NCBI GenBank assembly: GCA_002189035.1
Contig: NEEC01000017.1
Location: 1,426,001 to 1,490,000, forward strand
DNA from: Utricularia gibba
Taxonomy: Eukaryota; Streptophyta; Magnoliopsida; Lamiales; Lentibulariaceae
Reading direction: 5' to 3'
DNA length: 64,000 bases
This document shows positions 26,530 through 38,097 of the stretch, in pieces. The notes beneath the pieces were generated by a model. That model was not told the DNA's origin and ran no database searches. It saw nothing but the letters and a program-made list of their open reading frames with translations. The position numbers were made by a program, and so were the translations under genes. Numbering within the stretch: position 1 is the first letter of the stretch; every line of letters begins with the position of its first letter.

Positions 26530-28079
26530 ATGATCGGACTTACAGTTCTTGCTCGTGAATCACTGTTTCAGGCTTTGAGAATCGTTAAGGACGACGAGGT
26601 TTCCCCTGATCCACCCTTTCTCGAAACCTACAAGACCCTTTTCGCCGCCGCCGGTGACCTGAAAAAGACCCCGGTTGCCATGGATGAGTGTAGGTTACCG
26701 GTCATCGATCTGGGGCGGTTGATGCTGGGGGAGTCTGGGAGGAGATCTTGTGAGGAGGATATATGTGAGGCCGCTAGAGAATGGGGTTTCTTTCAGGTCG
26801 TTAACCATGGGATCCCGAGCGAAGTATTGGAGAAAATGAGGAAGGAACAGGTTTCGGTGATGACGAAGCCGTTCAGGGAGAAGATCCACGGAGGCGATCT
26901 GGGCTTCTCCGCCGGGAGTTACCGTTGGGGAACCCCTGCGCTACTCGTTTGAACCAGCTGTCCTGGTCGGAGGCCTTCCACGTCCGCATAAGCGACGTCG
27001 TCGACTCCCCTGTCATCAACGATCTCCGGTACGCACCTCCGTTGCTATTAGTGGAAAACCTTTGAAAAGGCAATCAATTGGACTAATTACTAATTACTGC
27101 CCTGCTAGGGTTTGGTATTTCTAGATTTGGTGCTTTTTAGAATTTTCTGAAACTTTAGTGGCGAAACTGTAATTTAGGGTAGAATATGTCGGAGACACGG
27201 CCGCCGGCATGTGCCTGATCCTGAGACATCGGCGCTGGTCTGGATTTCCCTCACGTGCTGCTGCTGAATGATCACATTCCCATTAACATATCGATTACAA
27301 AGATTCTAAACTATCTTCATAAATTGAATAATCATATGATTTTACATTGAATTTGCTCATTTTCCTAATGTATAACGTGAATAAGATAATGTTGGATTCA
27401 GATGGGCGATGAGAGAGTTCTCAACGCGGGTGCCGGAAGTGTGTTACAGGCTGTTGGACATCCTGGCGGCGGAGATCGGCGAGAACTCCAGCTTCTTTCG
27501 AGACACATGTCTGCCGGCGAGCTGCTATCTCCGGCTGAACCGGTATCCGGCATGCCCCAAAGCACCCCAGGTTCTGGGCATAACTCCTCACACGGACAGC
27601 GACTTCATCACGGTGCTCCACCAGGACCACATCGGCGGGCTTCAGCTCCTCCGGGACGGGAAATGGATCGCCGTGAAACCTAACCCCGACGCCCTCATCA
27701 TTAACATCGGGGATCTCTTTCAGGTGCCAAGTTTAGAGTTAAATAATAACCTGAGAGTTGTTCATCATCCATCTGCTTCCTCTGTAATGGCTCTTCAAAT
27801 GTGGTGGTGGTTGGGTGTTGTGCGGCGCAGGCATGGAGCAACGACGTGTACAAGAGTGCGAAGCACAGGGTGGTGGCGAATCCCACGACGGAGAGGTTCT
27901 CGACGGCCTTCTTTCTCTGCCCATCTTACGACACGGTGATACGAGGGGTTGCCGGAGAGCCGGTGTACCGGAGCTTTAGCTTCGGCGAGTACAGGAAACA
28001 GGTGCAAGAAGATGTTAGGGTTTTTGGTGACAAAGTGGGGCTCTCAAGGTTTCTTCACCAGCCGAATAGAAGGACCTAG
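26530..28079 (+). CDS. GA2OX8: Gibberellin 2-beta-dioxygenase, GA2ox8 type (C20-GA class), with a one-base frameshift in exon 1
   Basis: Three exons, 26530-27028, 27402-27723 and 27831-28079. Restoring one base gives 356 residues. It is an Fe(II)/2-oxoglutarate dioxygenase that would 2-beta-hydroxylate, and so inactivate, C20 gibberellins in the cytosol. Landmarks: LPVIDLGRL, REWGFFQVVNHGIP, FSAGSYRWGTP then TRLNQLSWSEAFHV (the block typical of GA2ox8), the iron ligands in HTDSDF and KHRV, and the 2-oxoglutarate arginine in RFSTAFF. The frame breaks in the C run at 26933-26936: as written it stops after WGTPALLV, but the next frame continues ATRLNQLSW and is conserved. The rest is clean, so an assembly error is more likely than pseudogenisation. 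Other 2-ODD families lack the SYRWGTP/LSWSEAFH pair. Confidence 0.85.
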
Positions 28080-29332
28080 AGAGTTCTAGACACCTCTCTG
28101 CTAGTAGACAATTTAGGTTCTATCCATTCTTGATGAATTGTCCCAAGTTTGTATGCATGTTTTTTTTTTCCTTTTTTTTTCTTGAAAAACCTTATTTCAA
28201 ATATAATTTTAAAATATGTATTTTAAACGTATATACTTTAAGTATATTATTAATTAAACAGCTTATTACAATCATTATAGAATCATTACTGATGCTGCAG
28301 CCCATCCATGTCTGGGCCCATGGGTCATCATTCCTACAAGCCCATTCATGTATTAACTTAAATTTTTAAGTTAAATTTAATAATTAATAAAAAATTTAAA
28401 AATTAGATGTTAAGATTTGGAATTTGATTGAGGTTCCTTCGGCTTTCCGGGTGCTGGCGTCTCAGCCGCCGCCGTGGCCCCATGAAATCACGAGGTGCGG
28501 TTAGCTGCTGCGGCGGCGGCTCATGTCTACTGCACAAGGGCCATGGGCATCGCGGTTCAGAACAGGTTCCTGGTTCCTTGTGCTGCGACCACGTCTCCGG
28601 CAGGGGGGCAGCGGCCAGGCGCCGGGAAACTTCTGGCGGCCTGTTCTCATGTGCGACTCCGCATGGCTGTGGGAACGCTGATCACCGACTCACGAGATAA
28701 AAGGATGGTTTTTGGCATTGGGATTGATTGGGGGTGTATGTGTTGAAATTAAGTATCACATCAATAACAATATACAATAAACATGAATTTCATTTAAAAA
28801 AATTAAATTCAATCGATTATTAATGATTTTAAATTTTTTATTTTATTATTATTTCTCGATGTATTTAAATCAATACGAAATGTATATTGATCATCCAAAT
28901 TATACCATAAGACAAATTTTTTGATATCATGATGAAATTTAGAATCTTATAGATAAAATAAGTACACGTAAAACCCAAATATATAAAAAAAAATATGAAT
29001 TACATTAGAAAAAAATGAAATCTAACGGATAGAATTTTTCTTATAATAAGGTAAGAGGGTCATGAGGCCCAGTTCCGTGATTGTCTCTCGCTGTCTGAAC
29101 TGAGTGCAGTAGGAAGCCCGTTCTTGGAAGGAAGCCCAAAAGTGGGTGGTTTCTGTCCGAACATTAGACCCTTATCGCTTGAAATCTCAGCATCTTCCCT
29201 CAGCCTCTCGTTTCTCTTGAGGATGATGACTGTTTCTACACCCCAATCAAGAAGAACTCACCATCTGTTGTTGCTCAAGACTTGATTTTGAACGCAAGAG
29301 CTCGACTGGTCTTGCTCTCTTCTCCTTCACCG
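28080..29332. other. Intergenic with an isolated GC-rich island
   Basis: AT-rich flanks surround a GC-rich island at about 28428-28740 that has overlapping open frames on the + strand but no domain I recognise. The last 250 bp are the ATPC1 promoter and leader; an upstream in-frame ATG exists at 29282. Confidence 0.5.
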
Positions 29333-30448
29333 ATGGCTGCTTCCAATCTGACAATGTGGGTATCCTCCAAGCCTGAAGCATCTTCCCTGTCCTCGCGCTC
29401 CTTCCTCGCCCCTCTTCCTCTTCATATCACTGGCGCCGGCGTCGCTGCATCGCCTTCCAGATCGACCCTAATCCAGTGTGGCCTCCGTGAGCTCCGTGAT
29501 CGGATTGATTCCGTTAAAAATACCCAGAAAATTACAGAGGCGATGAAGCTCGTCGCCGCGGCTAAGGTCCGGAGAGCCCAGGAAGCAGTCGTTAACGCTA
29601 GGCCGTTCTCGGAAACGCTCGTCGAAGTTTTGTATAACATAAATGAGCAGCTGGGTACAGAGGATATCGATGTTCCGTTGACAAAAGTTCGCCCTGTCAA
29701 AAAGGTTGCGTTGGTTGTCGTCACCGGAGATCGTGGTCTCTGCGGCGGATTCAATAACTCGATTATCAAGAAGGCGGAGGCGCGGATCAGGGATTTGAAA
29801 GCTCTCGGCCTGGAATACACCGTTATCAGCGTCGGCAAAAAGGGGAATTCTTATTTCATCCGTCGCCCACATATTCCGGTGGATAGATTTCTCGAAGGAA
29901 GCAACCTTCCAACGGCGAAGGAGGCTCAAGCGATCGCCGACGACGTGTTTTCCCTTTTCGTGAGTGAAGAAGTGGATAAAGTTGAGCTTCTCTACACCAA
30001 ATTCGTGTCTTTAGTGAAATCCGATCCAGTTATCCACACCTTACTACCGTTATCGCCCAGAGGAGAAATCTGCGACATAAACGGCATCTGCGTCGACGCG
30101 GCGGAGGACGAGTTTTTCCGATTAACTACAAGAGAAGGGAAGCTGACAGTAGAAAGAGACGTGATGCGCACAAAGACAGCCGACTTTTCACCAATCTTGC
30201 AATTTGAGCAGGACCCTGTTCAGATCCTGGATGCTTTGCTACCACTTTACCTCAACAGTCAGATTCTGAGATCTTTGCAAGAGTCTCTTGCGAGCGAACT
30301 TGCAGCGAGGATGAGTGCTATGAGTAATGCTACTGATAATGCAGTTGAGCTGAGGAAGAACTTGTCCAGGGTTTATAACAGGGCAAGACAAGCTAAGATC
30401 ACAGGTGAGATTCTGGAGATCGTTGCAGGAGCTAATGCTTTGACATGA
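29333..30448 (+). CDS. ATPC1: ATP synthase gamma chain, chloroplastic
   Basis: A single-exon gene of 371 residues. The gamma subunit is the rotor shaft of chloroplast CF1, coupling proton flow through CFo to ATP synthesis at the thylakoid. The start MAASNLTMWVSSKP matches the Arabidopsis transit peptide; an in-frame ATG 51 bases upstream (29282) is less likely. The mature protein begins near LRELRDRIDSVKNTQKITEA. VVTGDRGLCGGFNN and LLPLSPRGEICDING follow; the two cysteines of EICDINGICVDAAEDE form the thioredoxin-regulated disulphide that switches the enzyme off in the dark, a chloroplast-specific insertion. The C-terminal helix ends in ITGEILEIVAGANAL. Lack of introns agrees with plant ATPC genes. 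Intact. Confidence 0.97.
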   Translation: MAASNLTMWVSSKPEASSLSSRSFLAPLPLHITGAGVAASPSRSTLIQCGLRELRDRIDSVKNTQKITEAMKLVAAAKVRRAQEAVVNARPFSETLVEVLYNINEQLGTEDIDVPLTKVRPVKKVALVVVTGDRGLCGGFNNSIIKKAEARIRDLKALGLEYTVISVGKKGNSYFIRRPHIPVDRFLEGSNLPTAKEAQAIADDVFSLFVSEEVDKVELLYTKFVSLVKSDPVIHTLLPLSPRGEICDINGICVDAAEDEFFRLTTREGKLTVERDVMRTKTADFSPILQFEQDPVQILDALLPLYLNSQILRSLQESLASELAARMSAMSNATDNAVELRKNLSRVYNRARQAKITGEILEIVAGANALT

Positions 30449-31189
30449 GGTGAGAAGAACCCACAATCTGTGTAAGCTCTATTCTGGTTGTAACGTTTCT
30501 GCAACTGTTTTTTTCTGCTTTCATATGGACGTTGGAACATGTCTTGTTCAAATATATACATATTTGTAGTTAACAAGATGAGCAGTTCAAGAGATTCTAT
30601 ATCAGTACAGCACAGATTCTGTATTTTTCCATTTGTGCTCCATTGCTGCCTGGTTTACCTTTGAGTTAGTTAGTTGTCCCTTCGACCATGTCTTCCCTGG
30701 AGTACCATTCTGCAGGGTTTCAGAATAGTCATCTGGTTTCTACGAGGATCTTAGAGACATGAGGCCGTCACAGACTGAAACACCGCGTCTGCAGATTGAA
30801 CTGCATACATCACACTCACAGATTGAACGATGTATCTTCTGGTCTTCCTAACGAGCCCTCTTCCGGCGGAGCCCTCCACCGCCGGCCGTGTTTGCTGCAA
30901 TTCTCGAAATTTATTACAAGTAGTTTAGATGTACGATGAAGTATTCCAGAAACATGGAAACGATGCAAAACTTTCTTGCAAGAATAAGATGCACCTGAAC
31001 AATGTAAATCCATAACCATAATGGTCTCGAACAGAACGAACCAGCTCTCCAAAAAAGGAGAAACTAAAAGGACTCCACTGTGGAAGAACAAGGAAATCGA
31101 ACAGTGATCTGCGGTAACCATTTCTTTTTTTTTTTTTTTTACTGGGAATCCACTACAGTTGATATCAGTGAAGGAGCAACGTGAAACCC
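30449..31189. other. ATPC1 3' flank and probable 3' part of the MIR171 transcript
   Basis: It begins with the ATPC1 3' untranslated region (T-rich to about 30620). The remainder probably carries the downstream part of the minus-strand MIR171 primary transcript, including a poly-A/T tract near 31120-31140. The minus-strand frame at 30816-31235 resembles no known protein and overlaps the miRNA. Confidence 0.45.
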
Positions 31190-31325
31190 TAAGAAAGGAA
31201 ACAGGGTGATGAAACGTGATATTGGCACGGCTCAATCAAATAACAAAACCCTAGTTTGTATAGAGCATGGTTTCTCCGATTGAACCGCACCAATATCTCG
31301 TCGTCCGATCCATCCCATCGGAGAA
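31190..31325 (-). ncRNA. MIR171: MIR171 precursor hairpin (miR171b/c type)
   Basis: On the minus strand the 5' arm carries the star sequence at 31278-31298 (starts AGATATTGGTGCGG) and the 3' arm the mature miRNA at 31215-31235. The two 21-mers pair at 18 consecutive positions (three G-U wobbles), with an A-A mismatch at position 19 and 2-base 3' overhangs, separated by a 42-base loop. That is exactly the DCL1 duplex geometry. miR171 cleaves transcripts of HAIRY MERISTEM/SCL6-type GRAS factors. A TATA box sits just upstream. The boundaries given include short flanking pairing and are approximate; arm positions are exact. Confidence 0.93.
31215..31235 (-). ncRNA. miR171: Mature miR171 (21 nt, 3' arm)
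   Basis: Reads TTGAGCCGTGCCAAT...ATCACG on the minus strand, identical as far as I recall to the conserved plant miR171b/c sequence. The three-base-shifted form starting TGATTGAGCC is also present, so miR171a-register processing is possible. Confidence 0.92.
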
Positions 31326-31394
31326 GAGAGAAAGGGAGCAGCAGGCGAACCCAGAAAGATGTGCAGAACGTGTGGGAAGATGGAGAGACAAGGG

Positions 31395-31401
31395 ATTTAT
31401 A
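31395..31401 (-). promoter_or_regulatory. TATA box of MIR171
   Basis: The minus strand reads CTCTATAAATCCC, about 100 bp upstream of the 5' arm. A transcription start near 31365 would be expected. A TATA box at this spacing is typical of plant MIR genes. Confidence 0.6.
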
Positions 31402-31439
31402 GAGAAGACGGTTAACGTAAAGGAGGGGTGGCAAAGCAA

Positions 31440-32371
31440 ATAAGCATTAACTCAAAAGAGGGAGAGGCAAGGCAAGGCAACTGCGATTCTCAATTATGGG
31501 GTCGGGTCTAGAAGGAGCGCTTATCTATTGGATGTTCCTCAAACCCTATTCATTGTTCTTAAAAGACATGTGAGAAATTAGGTTTTGTCAGTTTTTGTTC
31601 CTCCTCTTCACAGGTCCACTTAATACCTATACACCACCAACATTTTGAGTCACAAAAACACTTTCTTTTGGAGGTTGCAGGTGCAAGTTCTCTAGATGCA
31701 TTGCTTCTTGTGGGTTGCATTGCATCATGCTGGAGCGGAACCCTAAAGCTCTGGTTTCTGGGATGGGGAAGGGAGGTGACTGGGGCGTGTAGCAGGGGAG
31801 GAGGAGGAGGAGGAGGAGTACTGTGGTTTATGCTAACAGTGTCACTGCATTGCGAATAACTAACTGTCTGAGAGTGTTGTCTGTGAAAATGAACTAAGCG
31901 AAGCACACTGCATTTAAAGGTTTAAACCCCACTGTCCATATTTCACGTGACGTTGCCTGCTTCTCTCTTCCATGAGCAAGGAACAGTGCATTAAGTGGTA
32001 ACCCCAAAAGCTTCTCATCCGCTTTTTACAGATTTGCAGGCATGGAAAAGTTTCTTCTCCTCTGTCCTTTCTGTTCTTTGCTTGTTTCCTTTTTAGTTTC
32101 TTCTATGGATTTGCGAAAAAAACCACCACCTTCAGGGATGTAATTCAGGAAAGGGGTGATTAGCAGTGGAAGATTACAGTTGTTGTTGATGACCAGAGAG
32201 AGTGATGGAGTAATCAGCTTCGGTTAGAGGGGAGACATGCAAAACCATATTGTTTTCTTTTGGATGGTATCTGGGCTCACAGCTCAATTCATGTACTTTC
32301 ATATCTTGAAAACTATTCAACTAGGTAATGGAGTTACAACTATTCAGTTCCTGTACATTACATGTGCATTT
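31440..32371. other. Intergenic: MIR171 upstream region and DUF1218 3' flank
   Basis: This likely contains distal MIR171 promoter sequence. A GGAGGAGG trinucleotide run lies near 31797-31818. The + frame at 31668-31859 has no recognisable domain. No gene is supported. Confidence 0.5.
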
Positions 32372-33140
32372 TTACACAGAAGCCACGGGGGGAAGTGGTG
32401 GTTCCAGCGGGTTCAAGGTCCTTTCTTCATGAAACGCAGCAGAGGAGTAGACGCAGTAAGTCACGGCAAACAAACCATGTATGAAACAAAGGATTCCTCC
32501 AAAAGACAGGAATCTTCTATCGTAAATCCCGCAGTTCCCTCTCGATCTCGAGTTGGCTAATGCTCCGAGACCAGAAGGGCAAAGGCAACAATGAACAACA
32601 CCCTGTTTGGTAACCACAAGAGAGATTTAGATAGGCAAACAGACAAGCTTGTTATTTGGCAGTGCTTGCTAGGGCTGTGAAATGAGAGCTTTTCTTACCA
32701 TGAGAAGACGAGGGAAACGACAGCAAGTTGTTTGTTAGAAGATGCACGTTGGAGCTCCTCTTTAGATCGAACAAAAACGAAGTGGGTGCTCAAATTAGTC
32801 ATAGCTTGAGCTAATGAAAGGAACACCACCGCAGCCATGCCTAGAGATAAAGCTCTGTAACTCGGGTCTTGGCATCTGATTATCCATACTCTCAAGGACC
32901 TCACCTGAAAAAAAAGGGGGAATCCCCGGCCGGAATTAAACTCTGTGTGTTCGAACTCTATAGCCTTCCCTTCACATAACAAGGATAATGCCACTGAAAC
33001 TATAGAGAGAGGACCTTGTTCTGGGCAATCTCAGCCTGAATCCCGAGAATCCCTGCAACGACGTCGAAGACGATGATCACAAGGCATGCGATGTAGACTC
33101 TGTAGTTCACTATGGACGAAGGAAATAAAGCTCTAGCCAT
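32372..33140 (-). CDS. DUF1218 four-helix membrane protein (MWL/DESIGUAL-type family), frameshifted in exon 3
   Basis: Three exons (high to low): 33015-33140, 32699-32904, 32372-32602. Restoring one base gives 187 residues. Four transmembrane segments are visible: YIACLVIIVFDVVAGILG, LSLGMAAVVFLSLAQAM, VVSLVFSW joined to VLFIVAFALLVS, and FGGILCFIHGLFAVTYCVY, with the conserved NCGIYDRRF before the last. DUF1218 proteins are plant endomembrane or plasma-membrane proteins; characterised members affect lignin (MWL1/2) or leaf bilateral symmetry (DEAL). In exon 3 the third helix and the NCGIYD block lie in different frames; one missing base in the C pair at 32565-32566 explains it. The alternative exon-3 frame gives a polar segment in place of the helix, so a frameshift is the better reading. 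Confidence 0.82.
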
Positions 33141-35134
33141 GGTAAAATGGGGATGCCATGACAGGGGAAAATGGTATTTAACACGTTAAGTATCGTGCAT
33201 GCCAAGGAAAATGAAATGCCATACTTTGCCTATGTTCAAGAATCAGAATAAAGGAAGCATACGCACGAGAAAAGGTCGGAAATGAATCCTGAAGAGCGCC
33301 GCACACGCAATGCGTTCAACCTGTGAAACAAAGAATCCACATTTTCGTTCATTACCAATGGATTCTACATTCGATTTCGATTTTATCGAAGGTCCAGACC
33401 TCTAACCTCGTATCCCCAAACGAAATAAAAATACCATAAGATTACGTGGTCTCCAAGAAGGTCCCCGGCGGAAGAACAGCCCGAATTGGACGATTCTGGA
33501 AGAAAAAAATGGAGTTCCTGGAATAAGCGAGAGGTTTGCCTTTGCCGCCACCGCGGCCATTTCCGGTATGCACACTGCACAGTGAAAGATGGTGCCCGCA
33601 AGATGATGACGTGGGCCATTTCTAATTGGGCTTTTACTCATCCAATTGGGCTTGTGGGTTGTCACGCAGACAAAAGCCCAACGAATGGAATTATCTTGCT
33701 TTTCTTTTTTTAAAATTATTTTTGGAAAAAATAAATCATGTTTATTTGATACTGATTTAGATTTATTATATATAAACAATGAATTGTGTGAAGAAAATAG
33801 TGCAAGATTGAATGTGGTATTAAATGTCATAATGTTGAACATGCATTATGAAATCTCATTATATTAAAATTATTATATTGAATTTTTAAAAATTAAAAAT
33901 TAAAAAGCAATTCCATTATTAAATTAAACTTTATTTCAAAATTTGGCACTCATTTGATATATTTTTTTTTTCTGGATTACCTGCAGGCTGCACCTATTGG
34001 GCACCTATGACCTATCTCTCCAAAAGTCAAAATTTGACCCATGGCCTCCACGTTTGACGGTCATCTATACGAGGAAATATTTGACTGTCCTTTCCCCTCC
34101 ACGTGTCTACTCGCCAATGGTTCCATTTATAACGGGGGATATATTTCTTTTAAATAAGGTAGTAAAAATTAGAATAATGCGAAATTGACTAATAATGAAT
34201 AATATTTTTTTATTATTTATATAACTCATGTGTTAATATAAACAAAAAAGTAATTAAACTTTCAAAAAATTCAAAATGTATTTGTTAATTCTTACCGTAC
34301 AAGTTTGATTCGATTTTCAAAACAAAGATTCACAGTTTTCACTTTTGATTTGAATTTTAGGGTGTGGTGAAACGAAGAAAGTGGATTAGGATATGGTGGT
34401 GTAGTGCCGTTGAGGTTGGAGATACAGTTCGAAGCTTTCCATGGGATTAGGCAGTGGGTTAGTTTTCTTGATCTTGATCATGAGTGATCTGCCAAATAAA
34501 CCACGTGCTGTTCCGCTTGCCTCGGGATTCGATTTATATTCTTTCCTTTTCTATTTAAAAGTCTCGTGATCACATTGTTTGACTTTTATTCAGCCTAACT
34601 TTCTTCTGGGTGTAGTAGTTTAATGTGTTTATCCGATTAAACAATCGGGGTGGTACACTTGTCTCGCCAAAAAAGGGGTACGAAAAGGTCTATTTTTCGT
34701 GGGTATCATTGGATCGCTACAGTTCCTTTGTTTTGAATCGGAGTGTGTCTAAATTTCTTATTAAAGTTTATGGCTTGATGTTGTATTTGAAGTTTGAGTA
34801 ATTGGGATTATCTTTACTTGCTCTGCGTGTTCTCATTCTTCGATTTTGAATGTTTTGGGTGGGTGGTCAAGTTACCATGGTTTACATGGATGGAGGGTAT
34901 CTAGAATATGGTAGGTTTGATTAGGCTTTATGGTGAGCTACTCGTACTTGTTTCCAGTGAATTCGAACCAACACTTAAAATTCACAATTTTTTTTCCCTT
35001 TCTGTCCATACAGAGGAGAAGCCATGGAGGATGGTCATTCAAAAAGCTCAGACGCAGCGGACCTTAAGAAGGTCTTACTTTCATCTTCCTCCTGAGTGCC
35101 TATTGAATTTATAGATGTTTTAAAAGAATGGTAT
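33141..35134. other. Intergenic between the DUF1218 and ENT genes
   Basis: It holds the DUF1218 leader (33141-33340), several GGGCTT/AGCCCA motifs around 33615-33680, an AT-rich block (33710-34350) and the ENT promoter and leader (34400-35134). In the leader an ATG at 35024 opens 23 codons that end in TGA at 35093, in frame with the ENT protein. Confidence 0.5.
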
Positions 35135-37107
35135 ATGGGACTTGCGCTGATGCCTTATTGGTCGAAATACCAGGGGAAGTTTCAGGCCATCGTGGTTTGT
35201 TGGTTTCTCGGACTTGGATCTCTTATATCATGGAACAGCATGTTAACCATTGGAGATTATTATTATCAGGTTTTCCCGGTAAGTTCATCAGTTGATCATG
35301 TGCTATGCCACCCTTCTGTATTGATTCCATAAGTTTGATATTTCTCTTTTATCTTGGACATTAGTATCAGTTTTTTTGTACGTGAAGGCATCAAGGGCCG
35401 TATCATGTTGATGATCATAATATGTCCTTCAATATTTTTTTGGTATACAGTCTCTAATGTTGCGCCGTGTCCCAGATGCTTATTCGCCATAGTGTTTTCT
35501 CTGTGTTGCAGAATTATCATCCATCAAGGGTCCTTACTCTGGTTTATCAGCCTTTTGCTGTGGGAACGATGGCCATTCTTGCATGTTACGAATCAAAGCT
35601 TAATACAAGGAAAAGAAACATATTTGGATACATACTTTTCTGCCTCAGCACCCTCGGTCTTCTTCTTGTAAGTGTTGCTTTCAGTAATCTTTGCTGTTCT
35701 TTTTGTATGAAGTATAAGTTGAACATTGTCCAACAGATAGATATAGGGACATCAGGGAGAGGTGGCATTGGGAATTATATTGGTGTTTGCGTTTTTGTTG
35801 CTGCTTTTGGTGTTGCTGATGCCCATGTTCAAGGTGGAATGGTGGGAGATTTAGCTTTCATGTGCCCTGAATTCAATCAGGTGAAAGGATCATCACTTCA
35901 ATCTACATCCAATTCTATGCGCCATGAAAAACACAACTTGTTTATCTTTACCCCTTATACCATTTCCTTTCTCAGTCCTTCTTTGCTGGGCTTGCTGCCT
36001 CCGGAGCTCTCACTTCCGCCTTACGGGTGATAACAAAAGCTTCATTTGATAGAACTGAAAATGGACTTCGCAAGGGAGTCGGTGAGTTACCAATTTCATC
36101 TCTGGACCTGATCATTTGATGTTACCTTTCTATGAGTTCCGTGAACATCCTTCCTTTATCTATCCAGTGCTGTTCCTGGCAATCTCAACCTTCTTTGAGT
36201 TCATATGCATTTTTCTTTACGCATTCGTGTTTGGGAAACTGCCTATTGTGAAGTACTTCCGCAAGAAGGCTGCCACACAAGGATCAAAGACTGTTTCAGC
36301 CGATCTTGCTGCTGTTGGTATCCATGCCTCAGTGGATGAAACGGTAAAACAGGTTCCTTTCATGCTCTTCTCTGTAAAAGGCTTGTTCTTTACATTCACA
36401 ACACTCCCATTCTTCCTTCAGGAGAAACAGGAGAGGTTAAGCAACAAGCAGCTGATATATAAGAACATCGATTATTGCATTGACCTCTATGTGATTTATG
36501 TCCTCACTCTGTCCATTTTCCCTGGATTTCTCTATGAGAACACCGGTAACCATGGATTAGGCTCATGGTATGTGAGATATACCAAAAACCGAAACCTGTT
36601 GGCATAATTCTCTTTGGGGGCTGACTGATGCTATGCTGATCATCTACAGGTACCCCATTCTCCTGATCGCAATGTACAATGTCTGGGATCTCATTGGGAG
36701 ATATGTGCCTCTCATTGAAAGCATCAAGATAGAATCACGAAAGGGCCTCTTGATCTCATGCTTCTCTCGGTTTCTGCTCATTCCTTGCTTCTACTTCACT
36801 GCCAAGTACGGGGACAAAGGCTGGATGATATTCCTCATATCGTTTCTGGGAATAACGAACGGGTATCTGACGGTCTGTGTGCTCTCAGTAGCTCCCAAAG
36901 GGTTCAAGGTGAGCAGCAAATCCATGAAGACAATGTGAACGAACCCACCTCATCATTCCAATCTGATGGAATCTCTCTATTTCTCTTTAACTGCAGGCGC
37001 CAGAGCAGAATGCTCTCGGCAACATCCTGGTGCTGTTTCTTCTCGGAGGCATATTCTCGGGCGTCGCTCTCGACTGGCTCTGGATCATCGGAAATGGGAC
37101 GTTCTAA
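35135..37107 (+). CDS. Equilibrative nucleoside/nucleotide transporter (ENT3-type, SLC29 family)
   Basis: Eight exons: 35135-35278, 35512-35667, 35737-35880, 35976-36081, 36168-36352, 36422-36567, 36650-36908, 36997-37107. They total 417 codons (416 residues), all in phase. ENTs move nucleosides across the plasma membrane or tonoplast, in plants usually with protons. Landmarks: KYQGKFQAIVV, GSLISWNSMLTIGDYYY, NYHPSRVLTLVYQPFA, FGVADAHVQGGMVGDL, SKTVSADLAAVGI (central loop), TLSIFPGFLYENTG, MYNVWDLIGRY, and the final LLGGIFSGVALDWLW, with about eleven hydrophobic helices. It resembles Arabidopsis ENT3 and its close paralogues; which one cannot be told. The start is uncertain: the frame is open back to 35096, directly after a TGA at 35093. 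Confidence 0.92.
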
Positions 37108-37630
37108 GCCGCCTGCAAAGTCTGCGGAGCAACTCCAGCAGAGGCGTTCCTTTCGTTTCATACCCTGTTATTCAGATGAAACAGTTGTCCAAACTCTGAT
37201 CATTCTTACTACAGCTATTCTCAATACATCTTCCATCTTCTCCCCACACAGTAAGTAATTGCAGTAAAACTCTTGGTTGCAGCAAGAGAGCGTGCACATA
37301 AAAACCATGGGAGCCTGAACTGAAGAGCCCCTGGTTTGCCCGGCGAGTAAACCAAAACTCCCATTTGCTGCTTCCATTGAATGAGCCAGCCTCTGGTTTT
37401 TTACCTAGAGTTCTCCAGTTTCCCAGACCCCCTGTTTCATGCTCTTCGTTTATATACACATACATGCATGTGTGTGTGTATCGGCTACCGAAGGGGAAAA
37501 AGGGTCTTCTTCATCGATCCATAGATGATTAGTTCGCGGCAGGTGGCAAGGGTGGTGCATGGGAGCGAGATGAGGAACTCGCAGGGAATCAGACACCCGG
37601 GGTCCAAGCGTGAGTCGGCGTTTCTCCGGT
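37108..37630. other. Convergent 3' flanks (ENT and the two-exon gene)
   Basis: The ENT 3' untranslated region, with a GT-rich patch at 37466-37480, meets the 3' end of the minus-strand gene. No further gene is seen. Confidence 0.5.
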
Positions 37631-38097
37631 TTAAGGACTCCCCAGCAGCGGAGAGGAGAAGGCGGCGGCGGCTGCGGCGGCGAGGATGAGAGCCGCCGAG
37701 GAGTCTCTTCGTACCGTCATGTTCTTGAGCTGCTGGGGTCCCAACTGACGACCCACCAACCGCACCGGGATCTTCCTCTTCCAGCAGTGCGACGTAAATA
37801 GCACATAACCGTTCATCAAGGAATGTTTGTTTTTCAAAAGAATTGTAAATATGAATCTTAAACCATGGATACTTACATTCGATTTCCGCCACTGTCGGCA
37901 TCCTGTATCCCTTCTTGTTGACGCCATTGCAGACGTTGGGACTCGATTCTGTCCCAGAGACTCAAATCCTCCTGCTTTCGATTTCTTCGAATGTTTATGG
38001 GCCCCGCCGCTGACTCTCCTTCTCCCACCATCACCACGGCGGCGGTTATGTCGAACAATCGGCGGAGTTTAGAAATCCGGCGACGGGCTACAGTCAT
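37631..38097 (-). CDS. Unidentified small two-exon protein
   Basis: Proposed exons (high to low): 37877-38097 and 37631-37775, a strong GTAAGT donor and 121 residues. The protein starts MTVARRRISKLRRL, has an acidic/Gly stretch, then SLWDRIESQRLQWRQQEG, DADSGGNR across the junction, IPVRLVGRQLGPQQLK, and an alanine-rich hydrophobic tail (AALILAAAAAAAF) that could be a membrane anchor or helix. The exon lengths add to a multiple of three and both halves look protein-like. I do not recognise the family and propose no function. The acceptor was chosen by phase and is the weakest point. The gene diverges from the PP2C gene across 141 bp. Confidence 0.5.

Follow-up and report, generated by a model that had tools for sequence, protein, structure and literature searches.

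The minus strand of the window, that is, of the whole 64-kb stretch of Utricularia gibba DNA analyzed here, carries a MIR171 gene of the miR171b/c type. The microRNA miR171 is ancient, forms one of the oldest families in plants and silences a family of growth-control genes. We are highly confident that the locus is a minus-strand MIR171 b/c gene with a putative TATA promoter, whose transcript would give a DCL1-cut duplex and an AGO1-loaded 21-mer for GRAS cleavage, these latter steps being predicted. The data argue strongly for a standard MIR171 gene that acts via the known miR171-HAM pathway. It is a well-supported addition to a very old plant microRNA family and leaves the known mechanism unchanged.

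The precursor hairpin lies at 31206..31307 on the minus strand, as delimited by Rfam and by folding. RF00643 (MIR171_1) matches this strand with 79.7 bits (E 7.8e-14, model positions 1-101 of 101), the gathering score of the family being 48 bits, and is the sole Rfam family at or above its own gathering score within the 64-kb window. Folding of 31190-31325 (minus strand), which the earlier note had proposed as a check, revealed a stable stem in a single hairpin with a minimum free energy of -52.4 kcal/mol. Dinucleotide shuffles of the same segment averaged -31.9 (z -5.94), and none of the 200 matched the native fold. The main helix runs without interruption for 23 pairs, followed by one A-A mismatch and four more pairs. 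The earlier note had counted 18 consecutive base pairs; the long unbroken helix is indeed there, but its real length is 23, and 18 is the number of these pairs that fall inside both 21-mers. The 2-nt 3' overhangs of the 21-mer duplex and the 42-base loop, both claimed before, were borne out by folding. The loop corresponds to a terminal region at 31236..31277 (minus strand), in which internal loops interrupt the upper stem and the apical loop measures 7 bases. A stable stem, few mismatches and 2-nt 3' overhangs characterize plant miRNA hairpins, and all were found at this locus.

Both arms of the duplex are identical to Arabidopsis sequences. The predicted mature miR171b/c, UUGAGCCGUGCCAAUAUCACG, occupies the 3' arm at 31215..31235 (minus strand; TTGAGCCGTGCCAATATCACG as DNA, read from 31235 to 31215) and equals the ath-miR171b/c-3p printed in PMC8910752 and PMC5396198. 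The predicted miR171*, AGAUAUUGGUGCGGUUCAAUC, occupies the 5' arm at 31278..31298 (minus strand; AGATATTGGTGCGGTTCAATC as DNA, read from 31298 to 31278) and equals the ath-miR171c-5p printed in PMC5396198. The positions given earlier for the 21-mer, the star, the 42-base spacing and the TATA box are all exact in the sequence. The fragments GAGCCG and CAAUAU, common to most miR171 according to PMC10340099, are both contained in the 3'-arm 21-mer at 31215-31235. Where precisely the mature strand has its 5' end is inferred from Arabidopsis, because the a register, UGAUUGAGCCGUGCCAAUAUC, could also be released by the 31206-31307 hairpin and pairs slightly better with most targets.

The locus resembles Arabidopsis MIR171b and MIR171c (RF00643) in its identical mature 21-mer, in a 5' arm that is miR171c-5p and in its HAM/SCL6-type GRAS targets. 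It differs from them in its location, with ATPC1 and a DUF1218 gene as neighbours, and we saw no mechanistic difference. The Arabidopsis MIR171a/MIR170 type has the core and the target site in common with the window locus, but uses a register shifted by three bases, UGAUUGAGCCGCGCCAAUAUC, and is reported to be processed base-to-loop (PMC5322449).

A TATA box (TATAAAT) is present at 31395..31401 on the minus strand, as the earlier note had reported; the 5' arm follows about 100 nt downstream, and the sequence of the box suggests a promoter function. TATA-like motifs in the two b/c-type paralogues, C98 and C413a, align with it, though the surrounding sequence has diverged. Aligned motifs in three b/c loci thus support 31395-31401 as a putative promoter, short of proof. 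A scan for bacterial promoters and terminators found nothing, and this type of scan is not applicable to a plant gene. The only formal miPEP candidate is a 28-codon ORF at 31232..31318 (minus strand) that starts in the pri-miRNA leader. It was rejected as a miPEP171b-like peptide: the ORFs that come first in C413a and C98 bear no relation to it, and there is no conserved leader ORF. The overlapping frames of 81 and 139 amino acids were likewise rejected as genes, as they have no Pfam match. The description of the gene as hidden under unrelated reading frames stood insofar as these ORFs match no family; it has little content, however, because the ORFs are mechanical and the gene is immediately apparent in Rfam.

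From the TATA promoter, minus-strand transcription would start at about 31370, and the transcript would fold into the hairpin. DCL1 together with HYL1 and SE would then cut out the miR171b/c:miR171* duplex, and the mature 21-mer, loaded into AGO1, would direct cleavage of HAM/SCL6-type GRAS mRNAs at the site that encodes ILARLN. DCL1, SE, HYL1 and AGO1 are reported to be conserved in U. gibba (PMC8333044). Arabidopsis MIR171b and MIR171c are listed as loop-to-base, MIR171a and MIR170 as base-to-loop (PMC5322449). In the window hairpin, pairing involves just 4 of the 15 bases beneath the duplex, compared with 11 of 15 above it. Because of this weak lower stem and the published mode of Arabidopsis MIR171b/c, loop-first is the better guess, and the loop would probably be cut first here as well. 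Pairing around the duplex is not a clean structural criterion, since the b/c-type C413a is paired at 11 of 15 bases on both sides.

We searched the 100-Mb assembly (516 contigs) for further members of the family and found nine distinct MIR171 loci genome-wide, three of which, including the window locus, belong to the b/c type and the other six to the a type. The b/c-type loci (the window locus, C413a and C98) have the flank ...AATATCACG and helices of 20-23 pairs. The a-type loci (C4, C411, C412, C413b, C414 and C244) form duplexes with more mismatches, the longest helix comprising 9-18 pairs. The closest relative of the window precursor is C413a, with 79% identity over 119 bases. Loop and flanks diverge freely among the paralogues, both arms of the window locus are unchanged from Arabidopsis, and its miR171* differs from the stars of C413a and C98. 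The homology to C413a and C98 does not reach into the flanking genes, and no common neighbours were found within about 5 kb on each side. In mycorrhizal plants, miR171h is the regulator of NSP2; it shares membership of the wider miR171 family with the window locus and differs in sequence and target. Within two mismatches, the genome contains no miR171h except for a single match, which was rejected because its frame is short and lacks GRAS character. This absence fits a rootless, non-mycorrhizal plant such as U. gibba. A small-RNA study of this species reports 71 miRNA loci in 17 families (PMC8333044), and its main text makes no mention of miR171 in Utricularia.

The GRAS (HAM/SCL6) targets that the earlier note had wanted predicted were searched for in the whole genome, allowing up to three mismatches to the miR171 site and using the reversed pattern as control. 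Outside the hairpins, six sites match exactly, and two others deviate from the pattern at one and at two positions, respectively. All eight are located in long open frames of GRAS-like (HAM/SCL6-type) proteins and encode ILARLN; the exact site, GATATTGGCGCGGCTCAATCA, occurs in six of these frames. Two of the eight, one with an exact and one with a near-exact site, were compared with Pfam GRAS, which confirmed both (2.2e-95 and 3.4e-85). The reversed pattern had no match in the genome even at three mismatches, and chance is therefore excluded for the miR171 matches. A further match with three mismatches (L040) falls within a short frame that lacks GRAS character. Against the eight sites, the b/c 21-mer reached penalties of 2.0-3.0 and duplex energies of 0.79-0.88 of perfect, compared with penalties of 1.0-3.0 and 81-99% of perfect energy for the a register. 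The b/c register is slightly weaker with most targets, with a U-G pair at position 9 and a mismatch at position 19. Since miR171 loci and GRAS genes with sites occur in the same genome, nothing is missing on paper from the silencing circuit: a mere 100 Mb contain nine microRNA loci and about eight targets. Two of the GRAS genes, L029 (C414:3442511-3445531) and L030 (C422:17297-20317), are near-identical HAM-type genes whose open frames differ at both ends. They are probably redundant or allelic copies; C422 is only 59 kb long.

The neighbours named in the earlier note were recovered on both sides of MIR171. ATPC1 is found at 29282-30448 on the plus strand (Pfam ATP-synt, E 9e-93), and a DUF1218 exon at 32695-32994 on the minus strand (Pfam DUF1218, E 6e-05, slightly short of the cut-off). 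A second full-length ATPC1 resides on C255, and window 29170-37762 has a collinear duplicate there (L049, G000:C255:2764600-2774500). In the same order, the two segments share ATPC1 (89% identity), a block at 31901-32088, two short blocks, of which one falls inside the DUF1218 exon (32825-32870) and the other at 33446-33585, and further blocks within 37301-37762. From ATPC1 to the first shared block it is about 1,430 bases in the window versus about 490 in C255, and neither blastn nor cmscan detected a MIR171 or a remnant beside the C255 ATPC1. The simplest reading of this comparison is that MIR171 would have been lost from one of the two duplicated segments; a gain in the segment of the window is a possible alternative.

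The C255 duplicate lacking MIR171 indicates that copies of the family may get lost in the U. gibba genome, and one could regard the window locus as another such case, a decaying paralogue that is no longer expressed and retains an intact hairpin only because too little time has passed since the loss. However, arms unchanged from Arabidopsis between a loop and flanks that vary freely are the pattern of continuing selection, and the TATA box has been kept, which makes a silent copy very improbable. We give still less weight to a hairpin on the plus strand, an inverted repeat that arose by chance or the trace left by a target-gene fragment in inverted orientation, which together amount to a negligible probability. 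Although the plus strand also scores above the RF00643 gathering score (66.8 versus 79.7 bits), it folds far worse (-36.9, z -2.75, compared with z -5.94 for the minus strand), because G-U pairs turn into A-C, and it would not yield the mature miR171 sequence. A chance repeat is at odds with the full-length Rfam match and with a precursor that resembles C413a throughout. The plus-strand reading was rejected on its lower Rfam score and poorer fold, and the MIR171 b/c gene is thus correctly placed on the minus strand, as the earlier note had it, with a full-length Rfam match and arms identical to Arabidopsis.

As a tentative and rather doubtful scenario, the ATPC1-DUF1218 segment might have been duplicated, with MIR171 kept once and deleted once. 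The three b/c genes might divide expression domains among them, and loop-to-base b/c and base-to-loop a genes might deliver different registers to the same HAM genes. The shared block at 31901-32088, beyond the MIR171 promoter, looks non-coding and has 78% identity with its counterpart on C255; a conserved regulatory element and a UTR of the DUF1218 gene are both possible explanations for it. The window also contains a 2-oxoglutarate-dependent dioxygenase gene at 26530-28079, upstream of ATPC1 (DIOX_N, E 7.8e-14), and an exon of an equilibrative nucleoside transporter at 36633-36938 (Nucleoside_tran, E 3e-08).
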